Assembly: GCA_016186095.1 (NCBI GenBank)
Contig: JACPMG010000025.1
Location: 1 to 34,415, forward strand
Origin: Candidatus Sungiibacteriota bacterium
Lineage (GTDB): Bacteria > Patescibacteriota > Minisyncoccia > Sungbacterales > HO2-52-23
Direction: 5' to 3'
DNA: 34,415 nucleotides
Shown here piece after piece: positions 4,886 to 16,403 of this stretch. The position numbers and the translations under genes were made by a program. Numbering within the stretch: the first letter of the stretch is position 1; every line of letters starts with the position of its first letter. Under the pieces are notes generated by a model that worked only from the letters and a program-made list of their open reading frames with translations, was not told the origin of the DNA and ran no database searches.

Positions 4886-5542
4886 TCATAACTGACGGAC
4901 TTTTTTGCGAAACCCCAGCCTTTTCATTGCCTCGTCAATCGCCCTATAAAATGGCGCTTTTTTATTTTGGCTGTTGTCCAAAACAAAATGCGCGCGGCGC
5001 ACGATCCAGTCGATTTCGCGCTCAATAAGAGAATACTCTTTTTTCATAAACTCGTTAAAACTCATCTTGCCTTCATCGCGCTTCTCGCTGATTTTTTTGG
5101 CATCAGCCAAGGCGCGCTCGTAACGAATCGAGTCGTTAGCAGTTATACCGACAAGGATCCCTTTTCTATTTCTCACAAATTCTTCATACTCCTCTTTGGT
5201 GCGCGCGGCCTCGACGATGGCGAGCTTTGGCTTTTCTCCATCAAGCAATCGCGCCACGCGCCTTTTGTAGGCCGATTCTTTCAGTATTGGATAAAGAATT
5301 TTATTTACTCCAAAAAGCGCGTGCAAAACCCTCCGGTCGGAAGCCAAGCCGAGAATTCTGGCAATAAGCGTGGGAGCTTCGGCAATGCGATAGTGCCGAA
5401 ATCCTGGATAATTTCTCATCACGTATGACAAAAGAACGTCTTTTCCGGTTTTTCTCCTGCCCGCAAGCACAAGCAAGCGGGTTTTCTGCCGCTTCCACGA
5501 GGAAGGAATTTTTCTTTTGATAGTTATTAACCTCTCTTGCAT
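4886..5542 (-). CDS. P-loop kinase (dephospho-CoA kinase / deoxynucleotide monophosphate kinase-like)
   Basis: LLVLAGRRKTGKDVLLSYV Walker A; kinase-like layout. Confidence 0.6.
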   Translation of the reverse strand: MQERLITIKRKIPSSWKRQKTRLLVLAGRRKTGKDVLLSYVMRNYPGFRHYRIAEAPTLIARILGLASDRRVLHALFGVNKILYPILKESAYKRRVARLLDGEKPKLAIVEAARTKEEYEEFVRNRKGILVGITANDSIRYERALADAKKISEKRDEGKMSFNEFMKKEYSLIEREIDWIVRRAHFVLDNSQNKKAPFYRAIDEAMKRLGFRKKVRQL

Positions 5543-6241: not shown

Positions 6242-7516
6242 ATGAGAATCCTTTCCATTGAAACCAGCTGTGATGAGACCGCAATCGCGATTGCGGAATT
6301 TTCCGGTCCCCAAAAATCGCCAAAGATTAAAATCCTATCAAACATCGTCTCCTCACAAGTAAAACTCCACGCCAAATTCGGAGGAGTGGTGCCGAATCTG
6401 GCGAAAAGAGAGCATCAAAAAAATCTCCCCCTTGTTTTACTGCGCGCGCTAAAGGAAGGAAGATTTTCAATTTCTAAACCCCAATTTCTAATTTCTAATC
6501 AAATCCAAAAATCCCTGCCTGGCCGGCAGGCAGGCAAAGTTCAAAAGATAGAAAAAATACTGGGACGGGAAGCTGAATTATTGAAACAATTCAAAAAAAG
6601 AATCGTACCTCTCGCGCCCCCAAAACTTGACGCCATCGCCGTAACCTACGGCCCCGGTCTCGCGCCCGCACTTTGGGCGGGAGTGAATTTTGCGCGCGCG
6701 CTCGCGTATCTTTGGGGCACACCCCTAATTCCTGTAAACCACATGGCCGGGCATTTGTATTCAGCTTTACTGCAAGCATCCCCACGTCATTCTGAGCGAA
6801 GCGAAGAATCTAATAGATCCTTCGGGCTTCGCCCTCAGGATGACCGCGGGCAATACGATATTGTCAATGTCAGCTTTCCAGCCCTCGCCCTGCTGGTCAG
6901 CGGCGGGCACACCGAATTGGTACTCATGCGCGGTCACGGAAAATTTAAGATCCTGGGCGAGACCTTGGACGATGCCGCCGGAGAGGCGTTTGACAAAGTG
7001 GCGCGGATTTTGGGATTGGGATATCCGGGAGGTCCCGCCCTTTCCGCCTTAGCGGAAAGGAGTAACCAGTTACTAGTTACTAGTAACAAAATAAAGCTAC
7101 CCCGGCCGATGTTAAATTCAAAAGATTATAATTTTTCTTTTTCCGGCCTTAAAACCGCAGTGCTTTATTTGACGCGCGATCTGGGACTGCAAAAAACAAA
7201 AAAGCTTCGGCCCCTCATCGCCAAAGAATTTCAAGATGCCGTGGTAGAGGTTTTAGTTTCAAAAACAATCCGCGCCGCCAAAGAATATAAAGCGAAAACC
7301 ATACTCCTCGGCGGCGGAGTTGCGGCCAATAAACTACTCCGTGAACGCCTTGTAGATACCTTAAAAAAGGGAATGCCCCTTGCCCTTTGCTATTTACCCC
7401 TAGCTTCGCTGACCGGTGACAACGCGCTTATGATCGCGGTAACGGCACGTTTTACAGGAAAGAAAAAGGCCCTCGACAAAGTCGGGGCAGATGCGAATGT
7501 AAAACTGGGAGACTAA
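6242..7516 (+). CDS. tsaD: tRNA N6-adenosine threonylcarbamoyltransferase, with three repeat-derived insertions
   Basis: MRILSIETSCDETAIAI, NHMAGHLYS, LLVSGGHTELVLM, DDAAGEAFDKVARILGLGYPGGP, FSFSGLKTAVLY. Confidence 0.95.
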   Translation: MRILSIETSCDETAIAIAEFSGPQKSPKIKILSNIVSSQVKLHAKFGGVVPNLAKREHQKNLPLVLLRALKEGRFSISKPQFLISNQIQKSLPGRQAGKVQKIEKILGREAELLKQFKKRIVPLAPPKLDAIAVTYGPGLAPALWAGVNFARALAYLWGTPLIPVNHMAGHLYSALLQASPRHSERSEESNRSFGLRPQDDRGQYDIVNVSFPALALLVSGGHTELVLMRGHGKFKILGETLDDAAGEAFDKVARILGLGYPGGPALSALAERSNQLLVTSNKIKLPRPMLNSKDYNFSFSGLKTAVLYLTRDLGLQKTKKLRPLIAKEFQDAVVEVLVSKTIRAAKEYKAKTILLGGGVAANKLLRERLVDTLKKGMPLALCYLPLASLTGDNALMIAVTARFTGKKKALDKVGADANVKLGD

Positions 7517-8201: not shown

Positions 8202-10478
8202 ATGTCAAGAGAACTCCAACAGCAATACAACCCAAAAGAAGTCGAAGATAAAATCTACCGGATGTGGGAAAAATCCGGCTATTTTGCGCCTGAGGCGCAT
8301 CAGCCTCGGGCTGATAATCCTGATCGCCTAAAGCCTAAAGCCTTCTCTATAATTATGCCTCCGCCCAACGCCAGCGGCGCGCTGCACATCGGAAACGCCG
8401 TTTTTGTAACTTTGCAGGACATTGCAGTCAGATTCCAACGCATGCGCGGTAAAAAAACGCTTTGGCTCCCCGGTTTTGATCATGCCGGCTTTGAGGCCCA
8501 AGTGGTATTTGATAAAAAACTGGAAAAGGAAGGACGCCGACGCTCCGAAATTACCAAAGAACAACTCTACAAAGAGATGTTGGATTTTGCCCATGAAAAT
8601 AAAAAAGTTGTTGAGGCGCAACTTCGCAAGCTCGGGGCATCTTGCGACTGGTCGCGGGAGAAATTCACTCTTGATCCGGAAATTGTAAAAATCGTTACTG
8701 ACACATTTGTTAAACTCTATCAAGATAAACTTTTATACCGTGGAGAGCGGATTGTAAATTGGTGCGTTAAGCATCAAACCACTCTCTCTGATCTTGAAAT
8801 CCGGCACGAAGAGAGGACAGAACCGCTTTATTATCTAAAATACGGGCCATTTGAAATTGCCACCGCGCGTCCGGAGACCAAATTCGGCGACAAATATGTA
8901 GTCATGCATCCCAAAGATAAAAGATATGCAAAGTTCAAAGACGGCGAAAAATTTGAGACCGAATGGATAAACGGGAAAGTTACAGCAACCATCGTAAAAG
9001 ACGAAGTTATTGACATGAACTTTGGCACGGGCGCTATGACTATAACTCCGTGGCATGATCCGGCGGATTTTGAGCTTGCAGAGCGGCGCAAACTGGATAA
9101 GGAGCCGATCATTGACCGCTACGGGAGGCTTCTCGCAATTGCCGGAGAATTTGCCTGTATGAAAATCGCCGAGGCGCGGCCTAAAATAGTTGAAAAATTA
9201 AAAGCCAAAGGGCTTTTGGCAAAAATAGATCCGAACTACAAGCATAACGTCGCTGTCTGCTACAAATGCGGCAACGTAGTTGAGCCCTTAATTATGCCGC
9301 AATGGTTTGTGAAGATGCAGCCGCTCGCAGAGAAAGCCATTCGTGCCGTAGAGAAAGGAGAAATCAAAATAATACCAGACCGCTACAAAAAAGTTTATTT
9401 TCACTGGCTAAGAAACATCCGCGACTGGAATATTTCACGGCAAATTGTCTGGGGAATCAGAATTCCTGCTTGGTATTGTGGAAAGAAAGTTTTTATAACT
9501 TCACATCAACTAGTCAGGCCCGTCGTAGGCCCAAAGGTGGAAACGGTCCACACCCAATTTGCTGATCCAGTGTTGGTGGGAGAGAAACCCCCTAAGAAAT
9601 GCCCAGATTGCGGCGAGAATGACTTGGTCCAAGACCCCGACGTTCTTGACACCTGGTTCTCTTCGGGACAATGGCCGTATGCCACTCTGCTTGCCGGCAA
9701 GCAGAGTGGAAAATCCGAAATCCGAAATCCGAAATCCGAAATCGTATCGGACGATTTTAAAAATTTTTATCCGACCGACTTGATGGAAACCGGATATGAT
9801 ATTTTATTTTTCTGGGTGGCGAGGATGATTATGCTGGGGCTTTACCGAACAGGCAAAGTTCCTTTCCGCACCGTGTATCTCCACGGCTTGGTTCGCGATA
9901 AAGACCGCCAAAAGATGTCCAAATCCAAAGGCAATGTTATTGACCCCTTAGGCGTGGCTGAACTTTATGGAACTGACGCCGTGCGGATGGCCCTCACCGT
10001 GGGCAATTTACCCGGAAATGATATAATTATTTCCGAAGAAAAAATCAAAGGATACAGAAATTTCGCCAATAAAATCTGGAATGCTTCCCGCTTCGTGCTG
10101 ATGCACTCGGCCAAGACAAAAGACGAAAGACGAAAGACGAAAGTGCGGTTCACTGTTGAAGACAAAAAGATGCTGAAAAAACTTAATGAACTAGTCAAAC
10201 AAACTACCAAAGATCTCGAAAGTTATCGCTTTCACCACGCGGCTGACCGACTGTATCATTTTTTCTGGCACTACTACGCGGATAAAGTGATCGAAAAAAT
10301 GAAACCAAAATTGAATTCACCGGAGCAAAAAGAAACCGCCAAAGCTCTGCTTTTAGAATTTCATACCACCTTACTAAAACTTCTCCACCCTTTTATGCCC
10401 TTTATCACCGAGGAGATATGGCAGAGGCTTCCGCAAAAAAATAAAAAAATGCTTATTGTAGAAAACTGGCCCTCATAG
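8202..10478 (+). CDS. valS: Valyl-tRNA synthetase
   Basis: PPPNASGALHIGNA, WLPGFDHAGFEAQ, WNISRQIVWGIRIPAWYC, DVLDTWFSSGQWP, KMSKSKGNVIDP. Confidence 0.93.
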   Translation: MSRELQQQYNPKEVEDKIYRMWEKSGYFAPEAHQPRADNPDRLKPKAFSIIMPPPNASGALHIGNAVFVTLQDIAVRFQRMRGKKTLWLPGFDHAGFEAQVVFDKKLEKEGRRRSEITKEQLYKEMLDFAHENKKVVEAQLRKLGASCDWSREKFTLDPEIVKIVTDTFVKLYQDKLLYRGERIVNWCVKHQTTLSDLEIRHEERTEPLYYLKYGPFEIATARPETKFGDKYVVMHPKDKRYAKFKDGEKFETEWINGKVTATIVKDEVIDMNFGTGAMTITPWHDPADFELAERRKLDKEPIIDRYGRLLAIAGEFACMKIAEARPKIVEKLKAKGLLAKIDPNYKHNVAVCYKCGNVVEPLIMPQWFVKMQPLAEKAIRAVEKGEIKIIPDRYKKVYFHWLRNIRDWNISRQIVWGIRIPAWYCGKKVFITSHQLVRPVVGPKVETVHTQFADPVLVGEKPPKKCPDCGENDLVQDPDVLDTWFSSGQWPYATLLAGKQSGKSEIRNPKSEIVSDDFKNFYPTDLMETGYDILFFWVARMIMLGLYRTGKVPFRTVYLHGLVRDKDRQKMSKSKGNVIDPLGVAELYGTDAVRMALTVGNLPGNDIIISEEKIKGYRNFANKIWNASRFVLMHSAKTKDERRKTKVRFTVEDKKMLKKLNELVKQTTKDLESYRFHHAADRLYHFFWHYYADKVIEKMKPKLNSPEQKETAKALLLEFHTTLLKLLHPFMPFITEEIWQRLPQKNKKMLIVENWPS

Positions 10479-10559
10479 GGCTACGAAATACGAAAATTTT
10501 GCGAAAGTACGAAACCGATTTCGTAATTTCGTACAAATTCGCATTTCGTAGAGAATACC

Positions 10560-11294
10560 ATGGCCGCCCTAATCGCCACTAACACCACCTATCTTTTTCT
10601 TACCTTTCTTCCGCCTATTCTTTGGCTCGCTTTTTATTTGCGCGAAGACCGGCATCCGGAGCCGAAATTTCTCATCGTGCTGGCCTTCGTGGGCGGCATG
10701 GCCGCGGCTCTTCTGGCACTTCTTGCCGAGTGCGGATTTATTTTTATCGCCTCCGGGTCGTGCCAAGGCGGGATAGGCCCCGGCCTAAATCCCTTGGTAC
10801 TTTTTCTGGGCATCGCCCTTATAGAAGAATATATGAAGTATCTCCCTGTTAAATTTCTCATCATCAAGAGGCCGGATTTTGACGAGCCGGTGGACGGAAT
10901 GATCTACATGATGACCGCGGCTCTGGGATTTGCGGCATTGGAAAATGTTCTTTTTATCTTCCCGCTTTTCCAGGACAGCATCTTCGCGGGCCTGGAGGTC
11001 GCGGCCAACCGCTTCTTGGGCGCCAACCTCCTCCACGCCCTATCCTCCGGAATAGTCGGGTTTTTCCTGGCAAGGCGATGGTTTCATCCGCACCGGCACC
11101 ACTTTATAGCTTTAGGCATAATACTGGCTACCCTGTTGCACACCGGATTCAACTATCTTATACTTACCAGAGAAGCATTGCCCCAAGGAACTTTCTACAT
11201 AATCCTGCTACTATCCCTCATGGCAGTTATGATCTTCATTGACTTTGAACGCCTCAAAAGGCAAAAATTAATAGATAAGACCATAGATAACTAG
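10560..11294 (+). CDS. PrsW-family intramembrane metalloprotease
   Basis: Multiple TM segments; EEYMKYLPVK, FLGANLLHALSSGIVGFFLARR, HTGFNYLIL. Confidence 0.8.
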   Translation: MAALIATNTTYLFLTFLPPILWLAFYLREDRHPEPKFLIVLAFVGGMAAALLALLAECGFIFIASGSCQGGIGPGLNPLVLFLGIALIEEYMKYLPVKFLIIKRPDFDEPVDGMIYMMTAALGFAALENVLFIFPLFQDSIFAGLEVAANRFLGANLLHALSSGIVGFFLARRWFHPHRHHFIALGIILATLLHTGFNYLILTREALPQGTFYIILLLSLMAVMIFIDFERLKRQKLIDKTIDN

Positions 11295-11383
11295 GTCGCT
11301 AAGAAATGCGAAAAATACGAATATACGAAAACCTCTGAACTTTTCGTACTTTCGTAAAAATTCGTAATTCGTAGAGAAATCAC

Positions 11384-11914
11384 ATGGCCACTTTTTTTGA
11401 AAAACTCACCGGCGCCCGCCAAAAAGCGTCAGCAGCCGAGTCCACTAGCATAGACCCGCAACCCCATGAGCTGTTGCGGCGTCCGGTGCGTACGACCGCC
11501 GTAACATCAGATGAACCCAAAACAACCCGCCTGCAGGTGGCGACCGAAGATGCTCTGCCCGCGGACATGCCAGCCGAGGAAGAAGAAGGGGAGCTCACCG
11601 TAGACATATATGACCGGGGCGATACCATAACCATCCAGTCTACGGTCGCCGGAGTAAGGCCGGAGGATCTTGACGTATCGGTAACCAACGACACGGTCAC
11701 CATCAGGGGGCGAAGAGATCGGGGAGAGGAAATTGATGAGAAAAATTACTACTATAAAGAACTTTTCTGGGGCAATTTTTCCCGCTCGGTGATTTTGCCC
11801 GAGGAAATTGAGGAAGACATGGCCGAGGCCAATTTAAGACACGGTCTCCTGACTCTTCATCTCCCCAAAAGAAAAAGGGGAGTGGTACAAAAACTCAAAG
11901 TGAAATTAAACTAA
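11384..11914 (+). CDS. Hsp20/alpha-crystallin family small heat shock protein
   Basis: VDIYDRGDTITIQSTVAGVRPEDLDVSVTNDTVTIRGRR...FSRSVILPEEIEEDMAEANLRHGLLTLHLPK. Confidence 0.9.
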   Translation: MATFFEKLTGARQKASAAESTSIDPQPHELLRRPVRTTAVTSDEPKTTRLQVATEDALPADMPAEEEEGELTVDIYDRGDTITIQSTVAGVRPEDLDVSVTNDTVTIRGRRDRGEEIDEKNYYYKELFWGNFSRSVILPEEIEEDMAEANLRHGLLTLHLPKRKRGVVQKLKVKLN

Positions 11915-11916
11915 CT

Positions 11917-11944
11917 AAAAAATCCGGTAGTCACCGGATTTTTT
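11917..11944. terminator. Bidirectional terminator between convergent genes
   Basis: AAAAAATCCGGT-agtc-ACCGGATTTTTT. Confidence 0.85.
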
Positions 11945-12395
11945 AGTCGCATACTTGTCTGCACTGTCCGCCGCCTGAAGAGCTTTTAGGCAAAATTATT
12001 TCAACAATACGCTCCGTTACCGTTTGGCTCGCGGGCTTATCTTCATTTGATTTCTCCAGCTCCTCCAGCGCTTTCTCCGTGGCTCCTATAAGTTCCTGTG
12101 TAGTTTCTGTTTGCGCTTTTGCCGCCGGGGATTTGTCGTTGGCGCTTTTCGGGTCGCTCTGACGCTTTATCTCGGCTATATTTTTCTTCAATTCTTGTAT
12201 GAGAACTCCGCGCCTTTCTTTCGGGTCCTCGGGCAAAACAGAATCAGCGAGGAAATTTTTAATCTCGCCGGTGTTTCTGGTCGCGGCCACGCCGATAAAG
12301 GCCGTGAGCTTCTCGCGGATTTGTATGGGCGTATAGTACCAGCCCGCGGCGATCGTAAATATCACTAACATGGTCGAAAGAATAAATTTTTTCAT
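11943..12395 (-). CDS. Hypothetical membrane-anchored/exported protein
   Basis: N-terminal hydrophobic segment KFILSTMLVIFTIAAGWYY; convergent terminator. Confidence 0.6.
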   Translation of the reverse strand: MKKFILSTMLVIFTIAAGWYYTPIQIREKLTAFIGVAATRNTGEIKNFLADSVLPEDPKERRGVLIQELKKNIAEIKRQSDPKSANDKSPAAKAQTETTQELIGATEKALEELEKSNEDKPASQTVTERIVEIILPKSSSGGGQCRQVCD

Positions 12396-12396
12396 A

Positions 12397-13017
12397 TTAA
12401 ATGCTTCCGTCTGGTTTTTTTACGGTTAATCTGAAATCTGGTCTAAAAGTTTTGAATAGCTTGGCGCGGGCCTCATCCGGCTCTACCCACTCCCACAGCA
12501 CTTCATAACTACGTCTCCTCAGGTGTATAATGGCCGTTTCGTACAAAAGCTCTTTTCTATACGGTGAAATGGGGAAAAGTTTTATTGTCCCCCCGGGTTT
12601 CAGTACTCGATCAAGCTCCGAAAAAATATTTTCGTAGTCCGCGGCTTCCGACCAAAGTGGGATTGCATGAAGTGAAATAATTTCGTCAAACGATCCCGAC
12701 CTAAACGGGAGCCTTTGTGCCACTCCGGCTACTACTTTATTTTTTCTGCTTAAAGCCCGCTGCCTCTTGCCCTCGGAGGTGTTAGAGCCAAGTAGCGGGT
12801 TTAGAGAAAATACCCTTGCCCTTATCCCCATTTTCTTTATCCCTTGTTCAAATTCCTCGGAGTTGCCGGAACCCAAATCCAGTATCGTCTTATCTTGAAG
12901 TTCATCTTGCGAGATTCCAAGTAAATACTCGTACGCTTCGTAAGGACGATCCCCGCCAAAAGTACCCTCTGAAATTTCTTTCGATATTTTTTCTTTCATA
13001 GCAACTTGGTTCATCAA
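12397..13017 (-). CDS. SAM-dependent methyltransferase-like protein
   Basis: TILDLGSGNSEEFEQGI, LPFRSGSFDEIISLHAIP, LDRVLKPGGTIKLFP. Confidence 0.8.
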   Translation of the reverse strand: MMNQVAMKEKISKEISEGTFGGDRPYEAYEYLLGISQDELQDKTILDLGSGNSEEFEQGIKKMGIRARVFSLNPLLGSNTSEGKRQRALSRKNKVVAGVAQRLPFRSGSFDEIISLHAIPLWSEAADYENIFSELDRVLKPGGTIKLFPISPYRKELLYETAIIHLRRRSYEVLWEWVEPDEARAKLFKTFRPDFRLTVKKPDGSI

Positions 13018-13037
13018 CTCGCTCCGTTATTTATCCA

Positions 13038-13108
13038 TGGACTCACCGAGAATCGAACTCGGGACTGCGCAATGCGAATGCGCCGGTATGCCACTTACCT
13101 ATGAGCCC
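13038..13108 (-). tRNA. tRNA-Ala (CGC)
   Basis: Complete cloverleaf on - strand: acceptor GGGCTCA/TGAGTCC, anticodon stem GCGCA-TTCGCAT-TGCGC, T-arm CCGAG-TTCGATT-CTCGG; no encoded CCA. Confidence 0.8.
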
Positions 13109-13176
13109 TCAAAAGTGTGCTGGTGAACGAACGACGCGTAATGCCACTTAACCATATCCCCGCGATAAAAGTGTGG

Positions 13177-13965
13177 CTATTCAAAACTTAGAATCATGGG
13201 CAGGTGGTCGGATACGGAAATGTCCGGCACCTGAAAGTCCTTAACTCTGATGCCCGGAGAAACGAACGTGTAATCGGCGAACTTTTGTTCCTCCGACGTA
13301 CCAAAATATGGGTTAATTCGGCTGCGAGTAGTCATAACCTTATATTTCTTGATAAGATTTTCCATATTCCCCTCTAGCATTTTAATGCTTTCGGTTCCGG
13401 GCATAAGGTTCAGGTCTCCACATAATATTTTCTCGCCTGTATCATTTTCCAAAACTTTTTTTATTTTACGGGATTGCTCTAAGCGTTCTGGCGTATCAAG
13501 CTTTGTTCCGGGATAGGGAAAACCGTAAACATTGCCGATTACATAGCGTTTGCCGCCCGTATTAATTCTCGTGCAAAGCATGCTTGCCGGAAACGGGTAA
13601 CACTTTGTCGAAACATCACGGCTGGCGCTATTTCTTTCTCCGCAGATAAAAAAATTGTCGTAGGATTCGGCCGTTATATATTTTTTAATAAACGTTGCCG
13701 ATCCTTCAGTTACTTCAAAATCAACCGGTCCCGCGTTATCAAATCCGTCCTGCTTCGGGCCCCAGAATAAATTGTACCCGTCAAGAACCACAACTAGGTC
13801 GGCGAGAATGTTCACATACGTATTCCTGCTGACTTTTACTTTCGCGGGCGAACTAAATACTTCCTGAAAACAGAATATATCGGTGTCTTTGGCGGACTTT
13901 TTTATAAAATCCATCAGCGGGTCATAAGCTCGTCCGCCCCATATATTGAGTGAAATTAATTTCAT
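13177..13965 (-). CDS. Endonuclease/exonuclease/phosphatase family protein
   Basis: MKLISLNIWGGR, CFQEVF, ILCGDLNLMPG, ADYTFVSPGI, SDHLPMI. Confidence 0.85.
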   Translation of the reverse strand: MKLISLNIWGGRAYDPLMDFIKKSAKDTDIFCFQEVFSSPAKVKVSRNTYVNILADLVVVLDGYNLFWGPKQDGFDNAGPVDFEVTEGSATFIKKYITAESYDNFFICGERNSASRDVSTKCYPFPASMLCTRINTGGKRYVIGNVYGFPYPGTKLDTPERLEQSRKIKKVLENDTGEKILCGDLNLMPGTESIKMLEGNMENLIKKYKVMTTRSRINPYFGTSEEQKFADYTFVSPGIRVKDFQVPDISVSDHLPMILSFE

Positions 13966-13973
13966 GCTACCTG

Positions 13974-14044
13974 TCGGGGTGCCGGGAATCGAACCCGGTC
14001 TTCACGCACCCGAAGCGCGCGTACTGCCGGTATACTACACCCCG
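13974..14044 (-). tRNA. tRNA-Pro (CGG)
   Basis: Cloverleaf: CGGGGTG/CACCCCG, anticodon arm CGCGC-TTCGGGT-GCGTG, T-arm CCGGG-TTCGATT-CCCGG; no encoded CCA. Confidence 0.88.
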
Positions 14045-14107
14045 CCTTCGCCCGCCGTAGCGGGCTTCGGCGGGCAAGGCCCGTCCGAAACCCGCGGAGG
14101 CAGGTTT

Positions 14108-15610
14108 CTACTTCACATAGTATTTCGCCTTCATCTCCGAAATCCTCTCATCCTCCACCATCTCCACTTTTGACTCGGCCGCATCAGCAATCTTAACAAG
14201 TTCCTCATCGCTCAAAGCGCCTAAATTCTTAATTCTTAACTCTAACTTCTCTTTCGTATTCCGCGTAGGATCGTCAATCACTTCCTGCAGAAGCACTTCC
14301 AAAACATGCCCCACTTTAATGCTCTGCGGAATCCCCAAAATCTTCATAACATCTTCGCCGTTCACTTTCAACATTTTTGGCGTGGGCGTTTCTTCCTCGC
14401 GCAAAATTTTCTCAACTCTAAATTGAAAGTGGCGCAGGCGATAGGGCACGGCCTTGGGCACTCCCATGCCCATACGATCGCAAATCCGCACCCGCACCAA
14501 ATCATCCATATTCTCCGCGCCGACGTGGCGCACCAATCTCCTGATGGACGAATCGGTAATTCCCTCATTGGGATCGTACTTGAAAAGGTGCCAGCGGATA
14601 AGCGTACTTACTTTTTCTACCGTATCGCGGGGGAAATGCAAACGTTCAAGAATTTGTGCAGCCATCCGCGCCCCAACCATATCATGCCCGTAAAAAGTCC
14701 ACTCATCGTTTTTCTTAGGCCCTTTGGTGCGCGGCTTGCCCACATCGTGCAGAAGCGCGGCCAGGCAGACATCCCAAGAGAACTTTTGTTTTGCCCCGTA
14801 TTCCAAGGCCTTCAAATTATGCTCCCAGATGGTAAAAATTCTTGGCCTGTTTTCCACGCCGATGCCCTCCTCAATCTCCGGAATAATATATTTAAGAAGT
14901 CCGAGATCGTGCAAAAGTCCAATGCCTTCTCGCGCGCGTGGCGCGGCAAAAATTTTCACGAGCTCATCGCGGATCCGCTCCTTGGCGATAAACTGCATGT
15001 TTCCGGAAAGTTTTTCTATCGCCTCTCTGGTTTTCTCCTCAATCCCGAGCCCAAGCTCCACCGCAAACCGAACTGCTCGCATCATGCGGAGCGCATCTTC
15101 CTCAAAACGCTTCTCCGTATCGCCCGCGGCGCGTATCAACTTTTTTTTTAAATCCCCCTGTCCATCAAATGGATCAACTATTTCTCCCTCTACGCCCACC
15201 GCGATGGCATTCAGCGTAAAATCTCTGCGCGATAAATCTTCTTCTAGGGTTTTGGCAAATCTAATCTCGTCCGGATGCCGCTTGTCGGTATATTTTCCCT
15301 CGGCGCGAAAAGTGGTAATTTCTATTTCTTTGAGCGTTTCGTCTTTGGCCTCCGTCTTTACGGTTACCGTGAGAAATTTGTTCTCATAAAAACTATCCGG
15401 AAAAATCTTTGTGATTTCTTCCGGTTTAGCCGAGGTGGTAACGTCCCAATCTTTTGGTTTCTCGCCTCGCAACAAATCTCGCACACAGCCACCGACAATA
15501 TGGGCCTCGAAACCTGCGCTTTGCAACTTTTCCAGCACCGCGGAAACTTCTTGGGGAATTTTTTCCGCCAGAGGCGGATCCGCCCTTGGCGGAAAATTTT
15601 CTCGCGTCAT
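14108..15610 (-). CDS. cca: CCA tRNA nucleotidyltransferase / poly(A) polymerase family with HD domain
   Basis: AHIVGGCVRDLLRGEKPKDWDVTT, RRDFTLNAIAV, LLHDVGKPRT; start placed at MTRENF rather than the upstream ORF ATG. Confidence 0.88.
   Translation of the reverse strand: MTRENFPPRADPPLAEKIPQEVSAVLEKLQSAGFEAHIVGGCVRDLLRGEKPKDWDVTTSAKPEEITKIFPDSFYENKFLTVTVKTEAKDETLKEIEITTFRAEGKYTDKRHPDEIRFAKTLEEDLSRRDFTLNAIAVGVEGEIVDPFDGQGDLKKKLIRAAGDTEKRFEEDALRMMRAVRFAVELGLGIEEKTREAIEKLSGNMQFIAKERIRDELVKIFAAPRAREGIGLLHDLGLLKYIIPEIEEGIGVENRPRIFTIWEHNLKALEYGAKQKFSWDVCLAALLHDVGKPRTKGPKKNDEWTFYGHDMVGARMAAQILERLHFPRDTVEKVSTLIRWHLFKYDPNEGITDSSIRRLVRHVGAENMDDLVRVRICDRMGMGVPKAVPYRLRHFQFRVEKILREEETPTPKMLKVNGEDVMKILGIPQSIKVGHVLEVLLQEVIDDPTRNTKEKLELRIKNLGALSDEELVKIADAAESKVEMVEDERISEMKAKYYVK
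15565..15594. repeat. Double-hairpin repeat inside the 5' end of cca
   Basis: CCGCC-AGA-GGCGG-A-TCCGCC-CTT-GGCGGA. Confidence 0.7.
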
Positions 15611-15711
15611 CTTAACAATGATACCGCAAAAACTGTGATTTGACAAATATGCAAAAATGATACAAAATATAGATAAATTTCCGGTTTTGTGATATTTTTA
15701 TTGAGTAATTT

Positions 15712-15783
15712 GCCCTCGTGGTGAAATGGATATCACGCTTGCCTTCGAAGCAAGTATTGGGGGTTCGAATCCCTCCGAGGGCG
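15712..15783 (+). tRNA. tRNA-Arg (TCG)
   Basis: GCCCTCG/CGAGGGC, anticodon arm CTTGC-CTTCGAA-GCAAG, T-arm GGGGG-TTCGAAT-CCCTC; no encoded CCA. Confidence 0.88.
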
Positions 15784-15906
15784 ACACAACTGCTTGTGTC
15801 GCGTGAGGGATGAGAAGACCACAGCGTTGCGCGACGAGCTTGAGGCGAGGAGCGCCGCGAGGGGCGGCCTGCGACTGAGCGAGCGGAAGCTCGCGAGAGT
15901 TGTAGG

Positions 15907-15924
15907 CGAATCCCTCCGAGGGCG
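15907..15924 (+). repeat. 18-nt direct repeat of the tRNA-Arg 3' end
   Basis: CGAATCCCTCCGAGGGCG identical to 15766-15783. Confidence 0.85.
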
Positions 15925-15930
15925 TTTGGT

Positions 15931-15988
15931 TCGCCCGGTCGTATGACCGGGCATCCAGTCGCATGACTGGACGAGTCCTGGCGGGCGC
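15931..15988. repeat. Hairpin-pair repeat, copy A
   Basis: tcgCCCGGTC-gtat-GACCGGGcatCCAGTC-gcat-GACTGGacgagtcctggcgggcgcg; aligns without gaps to 16871-16928. Confidence 0.8.
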
Positions 15989-16154
15989 GTTTCCATAATT
16001 TAAAAACCCGCAGATGATGCGAGCTGTGCGTCTCCCTTTTATTCCTATTTTCAAGGTGGTCTATAACGCCCTCATAAAATTGACTGAAAAACAAGGCGGG
16101 AATAAAATCACGTCATCCGCCCATAGCTCAATTGACAGAGTCCCGATGCTGTGT

Positions 16155-16227
16155 CCGTCCCTAGCTCAATTGGTAGAGCAGCTCCCTCTTAAGGAGACGG
16201 TTCCGAGTTCGAGTCTCGGGGGACGGA
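16155..16227 (+). tRNA. tRNA-Lys (CTT)
   Basis: CCGTCCC/GGGACGG, D-arm GCTC-AATTGGTA-GAGC, anticodon arm GCTCC-CTCTTAA-GGAGA, T-arm CCGAG-TTCGAGT-CTCGG. Confidence 0.9.
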
Positions 16228-16295
16228 CACAGCATCGAGGATCCTCGACTTCTAAAATGAGTTATTTCAAATTAAAGTCGGGCCGCTCCCTCTTT

Positions 16296-16324
16296 CAGCC
16301 AGAGGCTGATCCGCCTCGGGCGGA
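16296..16324. repeat. Double-hairpin repeat in the anticodon-loop region of the interrupted tRNA
   Basis: CAGCC-AGA-GGCTG-A-TCCGCC-TCG-GGCGGA. Confidence 0.7.
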
Positions 16325-16403
16325 AAGGACAAGGTTCCAGGTTCAACTCCTGGTGGGCGGATTTCCGAAAGAAAACTAAAGCTTGATAAAATAAAAGCCG
16401 GGT

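Follow-up and report, generated by a model that had tools for sequence, protein, structure and literature searches.

What are the paired hairpins that recur in valS, in cca and in a tRNA-like sequence on a single contig of a Candidatus Sungiibacteriota bacterium, and how could they come to lie inside such genes? The window analyzed here is the whole 34,415-nucleotide stretch of contig JACPMG010000025.1, which is contig 18 of the 32 contigs in the host assembly (680,282 bases, 92% complete). All three sites carry a copy of the same 30-nucleotide element, which is likely selfish DNA: a miniature palindromic insertion element with a length of exactly 30 bp.

The element and its copies

The element consists of two abutting hairpins, each with a 6-bp stem and a 3-nucleotide loop, placed 15 nucleotides apart with no spacer (consensus TCCGCC-NNN-GGCGGA-TCCGCC-NNN-GGCGGA). 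The first loop is purine-rich and mostly has A at its end; the second is pyrimidine-rich and mostly has T at its start. Among copies with perfect consensus stems, the loop, spacer and loop are always 3, 0 and 3 nucleotides long. The valS copy (8285..8314, plus strand; hairpin 1 at 8285-8299, hairpin 2 at 8300-8314) reads TGCGCC-tga-GGCGCA followed by TCAGCC-tcg-GGCTGA and is translated in phase 2 as APEAHQPRAD, near the N terminus of valyl-tRNA synthetase (open reading frame (ORF) 8202..10478, plus strand; Pfam tRNA-synt_1, E=1e-120). The cca copy (15564..15593, no strand assigned) is the exact consensus, TCCGCCAGAGGCGGATCCGCCCTTGGCGGA, with stems and loops TCCGCC-aga-GGCGGA and TCCGCC-ctt-GGCGGA; its minus-strand reading is PPRADPPLAE, again in phase 2, near the N terminus of the CCA-adding tRNA nucleotidyltransferase (ORF 14108..15646, minus strand; NCBIfam PRK13299, E=2.9e-82). 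The third copy (16295..16324, no strand assigned), TCAGCC-aga-GGCTGA followed by TCCGCC-tcg-GGCGGA, lies between CTCTT and AAGG, at the would-be anticodon loop of a decayed tRNA-like remnant (16116..16361, plus strand). The remnant is interrupted both by the element and by a segment carrying an intact tRNA-Lys(CTT) (16155..16228, plus strand; found by ARAGORN and Rfam).

The original prediction had proposed these three double-hairpin loci, and all of them are present, each one base earlier than given there. Its two hairpins with 3-nucleotide loops stand, and its 5-bp and 6-7-bp stems joined by an A or AT do not, because the outermost base pair of each stem, T-A, had been left out and appeared as a spacer. 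The third locus had been taken for a tRNA; the sequence is tRNA-like, and it is a decayed remnant around the intact tRNA-Lys rather than a working tRNA gene. Searched against Rfam, the element matched no family at the gathering score, and tRNAs were the sole Rfam matches in the window. Other tandem hairpins, CCCGGTC-gtat-GACCGGG and CCAGTC-gcat-GACTGG, lie between two tRNA genes at about 15930-15975.

A pattern-free scan of the host genome for two adjacent hairpins (stem of at least 5 bp, loop of 3 nucleotides) found 24 pairs, of which 17 have a spacing of exactly 15. In third-order Markov controls the same scan yielded 5, 1 and 1 pairs, never more than one of them with this spacing. The hairpin pairs are not due to chance. 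Under a looser rule there are 18 copies in the host genome and 24 in G003, the complete genome of a relative from the host's family; the three sites thus belong to a family, as had been supposed.

The stems vary in a coordinated way. Variants were chosen by similarity to the consensus (at most 5 mismatches) with no requirement for pairing, and 42 distinct variants were aligned, 1 of the 43 gathered being left out. In this alignment 95.2% of the cells are paired, as against 84.9±0.7 after shuffling, and 41 cells are altered on both sides, as against 7.7±2.3 in the shuffles and 1 to 8 in controls with the structure slid along the sequence. The covariation score is 0.303 (shuffled, 0.113±0.012; reached by 0/500 shuffles), and slid structures score far lower. 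The covariation that had been read from three loci therefore holds in a test blind to pairing. In 48 variant copies, both bases are altered with Watson-Crick pairing kept in 47 pairs and lost in 4, and a single base is altered in 35; wobble intermediates make up 12 of these 35 and are not plainly in excess. The paired changes are genuine, and they may arise by selection for structure, by a need of the mobilizing enzyme or by template switching between the arms. Complementarity between the two loops is raised in exact copies (31 vs 16.8±3.5) and weak in a wider set (34 vs 27.0±4.4), and was not used.

Insertion into conserved genes

Fourteen host copies lie inside conserved genes: gyrB, nth, cysteine desulfurase, argS, infB, a sigma-70 factor, pepA, rplD (at the C terminus), mfd, valS, cca, atpB, atpA and dnaJ. 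We infer that most of these genes are essential. In gyrB, nth, argS, infB, pepA, mfd and cca, the G003 protein lacks, at the insertion site, exactly the 10 residues gained by the filled host protein; in gyrB, for example, host EPDAEVF[SAQGGSASGG]EKIAFDW corresponds to G003 EPDPEVFEKIQFDW. The reverse case, with G003 filled and the host empty, occurs in a uvrB-like gene and in rplC. The same 10 residues of nth are absent from the solved endonuclease III 1p59; a single-sequence structure prediction of endonuclease III gave a pLDDT of 39 and was unusable. At the DNA level, the empty site of cysteine desulfurase is clean (GGATTT^GAAGTC), as are those found between genus mates in a typA-like gene (AAAATT^GATTTT), polA and uvrC. 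The empty site of valS in relatives is GFF^NPD or similar, and the filled site is common to the host and G003. Both valS and cysteine desulfurase are filled in the two genera, with 1/30 bases different. Since the net gain in the orthologue pairs is 30 bp and the element itself is 30 bp, the compared insertions were made with no target duplication. In this they differ from a miniature inverted-repeat transposable element (MITE) of the duplicating kind, which would have a direct repeat of its target on either side.

Two side observations concern these genes. The start of valS with its element (8202-8400) is similar to that of G003, but over its full length the valS fragment is nearer to those of G002 and G012, both element-free; judged from these similarities, the gene is possibly a mosaic made by recombination. 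A second family of palindromic inserts (CCTGCC...GGCAGG) is present on three host contigs (C7:about 5118-5160; C8:5105-5135; C32:46548-46570), and its copy in cysteine desulfurase codes for ARLPDLPDRQAGGQ, immediately ahead of the double hairpin.

The insertion sites share a preference for T at -2, T or C at -1, A or G at +1 and A at +2, with a purine at -6 and a pyrimidine at +6. The target is thus TY^RA, or loosely RNNNTY^RANNNY, and both target and element are symmetric. The preference is alike in coding and non-coding copies. Of the 117 copies examined outside the host genome, 65, drawn from many genomes, lie in ORFs of at least 250 amino acids, and their reading phases 0, 1 and 2 are in the ratio 58:4:3. 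Target-like sites in the host genome would give 48, 31 and 21 percent (p=4e-12). Read in phase 0, the element codes for SAxGGSAxGG, a short flexible Gly/Ser linker; valS and cca are phase-2 exceptions in the host. The consensus has no stop codon in any frame. Most copies (58/65) share one reading phase, and the simplest account is that the insertions are translated, not removed, and that most insertions in other phases were lost to selection. A removable intron is rejected on account of this bias and of the intact tRNA copies described below.

The tRNA-like copies point to decay. In G003, at about 457660-457890, an intact tRNA-Lys(CTT) is likewise nested in a broken tRNA-like remnant, which carries no element. 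In one tRNA-Asn copy of G003 an element immediately follows the anticodon and a second lies in the T loop; an intact tRNA-Asn adjoins this copy. At G003:294300-295160 (L217) the 5' half of a tRNA-Ser is followed by an element and a GIY-YIG gene, this arrangement occurring twice, then by an intact tRNA-Ser(TGA), and then by an element with the 3' half. A tRNA intron would be expected in a tRNA that is otherwise intact and has no second copy; here intact tRNAs adjoin the broken ones. The interrupted copies are remnants and give no evidence for introns. Small GIY-YIG nuclease genes also occur amid tRNA fragments and double-hairpin elements on host contig C32 (46500-47080). The idea of a structure-dependent element tolerated in protein and RNA genes was therefore right for protein genes; the RNA-gene case is a remnant, and the evidence favors a mobile element with clean empty sites over a conserved functional structure.

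Spread, movement and alternative explanations

Of 384 genomes of the class, 74 contain an exact copy; when the exact consensus is reversed, none of these genomes has a match. In a scan of 84,980 species genomes, the matches listed include many Patescibacteria lineages and also records labelled as Omnitrophota, Kiritimatiellae, Lentisphaerae, Auribacterota, Firestonebacteria, Margulisiibacteriota, Ignavibacteria, Chloroflexota and Deltaproteobacteria. Outside Patescibacteria, ten assemblies contain from 2 to 41 copies apiece, and these are distributed over several contigs, a pattern that speaks against stray contamination. The same insertion site is used in distant homologues of dus, in gyrB to within two codons, and at NYPNPF^NP in three proteins; such coincidence of position suggests repeated independent insertion where it is tolerated. 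In the last case the element sits at an identical position in different genomes (L147:3838, L192:5325, L202:1002), in a motif which we take to be, probably, that of a type 9 secretion sorting domain.

By combining these observations, it is possible to propose how the element moves. An enzyme supplied in trans would recognize the hairpins in single-stranded or extruded form and would join the element to a cut target. Insertions into genes would survive because 30 nucleotides keep the frame, the consensus has no stop codon and the proteins can accommodate the added peptide, probably in surface loops. The predominance of one phase would then reflect selection against insertions in the others.

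Several vehicles for such movement were considered and rejected. Plasmid and phage collections gave no convincing match to the element, with one match in 2.9 million viral contigs, which leaves spread by phage or plasmid without support. In the Kiritimatiellae genome with 41 copies, the element lies within a repeat of about 190 bp containing CATTCCGAGCG...GAGGAATCTC (L087:4587-4760 and 6408-6581; L108; L151); this longer carrier has no evident transposase. GIY-YIG nucleases lie within 500 bp of only 3 of the 117 copies outside the host, and only the copies in tRNA clusters adjoin them. Their counts per genome are 6.7 vs 4.5 (p=0.046), and none was detected in G163, which has 10 copies.

The most substantial alternative is that the element is a repeat of the repetitive extragenic palindrome (REP) or bacterial interspersed mosaic element (BIME) type, moved by a REP-associated Y1 transposase (RAYT), a link that the original prediction had proposed. 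Y1 elements of the IS200/IS605 type insert with no target duplication, as the element does. Its size and hairpin form are REP-like, REPs occur in repair and tRNA-synthetase genes (PMC3733652), and the host genome carries three Y1 (PF01797) genes. These genes, however, are adjoined by hairpins of other sequence families (C1:8354-8376 and 9014-9034; C4:5229-5255; C28:12827-12847), and no TCCGCC hairpin was found on their contigs. The gene on C1, for instance, lies between CGTACCGGAC-taa-GTCCGGTACG and GTACCGGAC-tta-GTCCGGTAC. No GTAG or CGTC tag was seen next to the stem of the element, the flanks being TY before and RA after. Y1 is present in 14/22 element-rich and 10/22 element-free genomes (Fisher p=0.36), and it was not detected in 8/22 element-rich genomes, among them G368 with 16 exact copies. 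Y1 genes thus exist in the host, and their occurrence does not track the element; a Y1 transposase or RAYT of the usual REP type is unlikely as the mover, and this reading as a whole is improbable.

It is still less probable that the element is a functional RNA or DNA structure, serving in mRNA processing or decay, in pausing, as an intron-like piece or in translational bypass. The paired changes would fit such a role, as would the copies in tRNA-like sequences, one of them directly after the anticodon, and the near identity of the valS and cysteine desulfurase copies across two genera whose surrounding proteins are far more divergent. Yet the genes that carry the element have no relation to one another and are not the same ones from genus to genus, intergenic copies also exist, an intact copy adjoins the interrupted tRNA copies, and a strong phase bias would be needless if the segment were removed or skipped. 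The least probable reading is that no mobile element is involved and that quasi-palindrome template switching formed the palindromes, or at least their covariation, where they now stand. Template switching can perfect imperfect palindromes and so produce paired changes with no selection, and the lack of a plain excess of wobble intermediates agrees with this. The occurrence of the same 30-nucleotide consensus as a clean insertion in unrelated genes and phyla refutes it as the origin of the family; it may shape the covariation.

The selfish insertion element itself has to be set against some contrary observations. Neither a mobilizing enzyme nor an autonomous parent or carrier was found. Some copies have flanking direct repeats of 6-7 nucleotides, with three exact 7-mers where 0.05 are expected; they are a minority, mostly in low-complexity sequence, and these copies might stem from a target-duplicating route. 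The compared set holds one genome per species, its closest pairs being about 70-86% identical, and the insertions were read from sequence.

Relation to known elements and significance

The nearest known kinds are intragenic REPs and the Rickettsia palindromic elements (RPE), and the element resembles both as in-frame palindromic selfish DNA. Intragenic REPs of the GTAG and CGTC super-families lie inside repair and tRNA-synthetase genes and are translated in frame, and CGTC REPs also occur without a known transposase (PMC3733652). The element shares with them short palindromes, dimers, stem variants that preserve pairing, copies in the same classes of genes and in-frame translation. Unlike REPs, it lacks both the tag and an unpaired tail, is built of two abutting 6-bp stems with a fixed length of 30 nucleotides, has one dominant reading phase and shows no tie to Y1 genes. 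REPs are mostly intergenic, and those of the GTAG type flank a RAYT gene with the same hairpin, in contrast to the genic copies and the three host Y1 genes described here. RPE, described from Rickettsia, are 105-146 bp long (PMC2229807). Like them, the element lies in conserved protein genes with the frame kept, and in RNA genes too; unlike them, it has two 6-bp stems rather than a long stem-loop, falls well short of their length and occurs in several phyla. It is thus shorter than these relatives in form, untagged, phase-selected and cross-phylum.

Two other kinds are more distant. The double-hairpin elements of fungal mitochondria (Allomyces) consist of two adjacent GC-rich hairpins, are mobile and also occur within genes; they are mitochondrial, unlike the bacterial element, and are likened to it by form only, not by sequence. 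Miniature elements derived from IS200/IS605 have hairpin ends, with the left end and the right end each still recognizable, and insert at a one-sided target without duplicating it. The element and its target preference are, by contrast, symmetric, and no parent element was found.

No published description of such elements in these phyla was found in the open-access literature, and an earlier one may exist. Tentatively, with a little less than even confidence, we propose an undescribed 30-bp mobile element, among the smallest known, which would be moved by an enzyme into symmetric TY^RA sites with no duplication, would have spread through several phyla of uncultivated bacteria, and would supply a portable ten-residue Gly/Ser linker to essential proteins.

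The finding accounts for the unusual FSAxGGSAxGGK inserts, ten residues long, seen in proteins of metagenome-assembled genomes; such inserts can upset annotation and alignments. The identity of the mover enzyme is open to direct test, given the exact length, the clean borders, the symmetry of the target and the spread across phyla. For the organisms themselves, it means selfish DNA inside essential genes of very small genomes, of a size at which frame, stop codons and peptide properties together let insertions survive.

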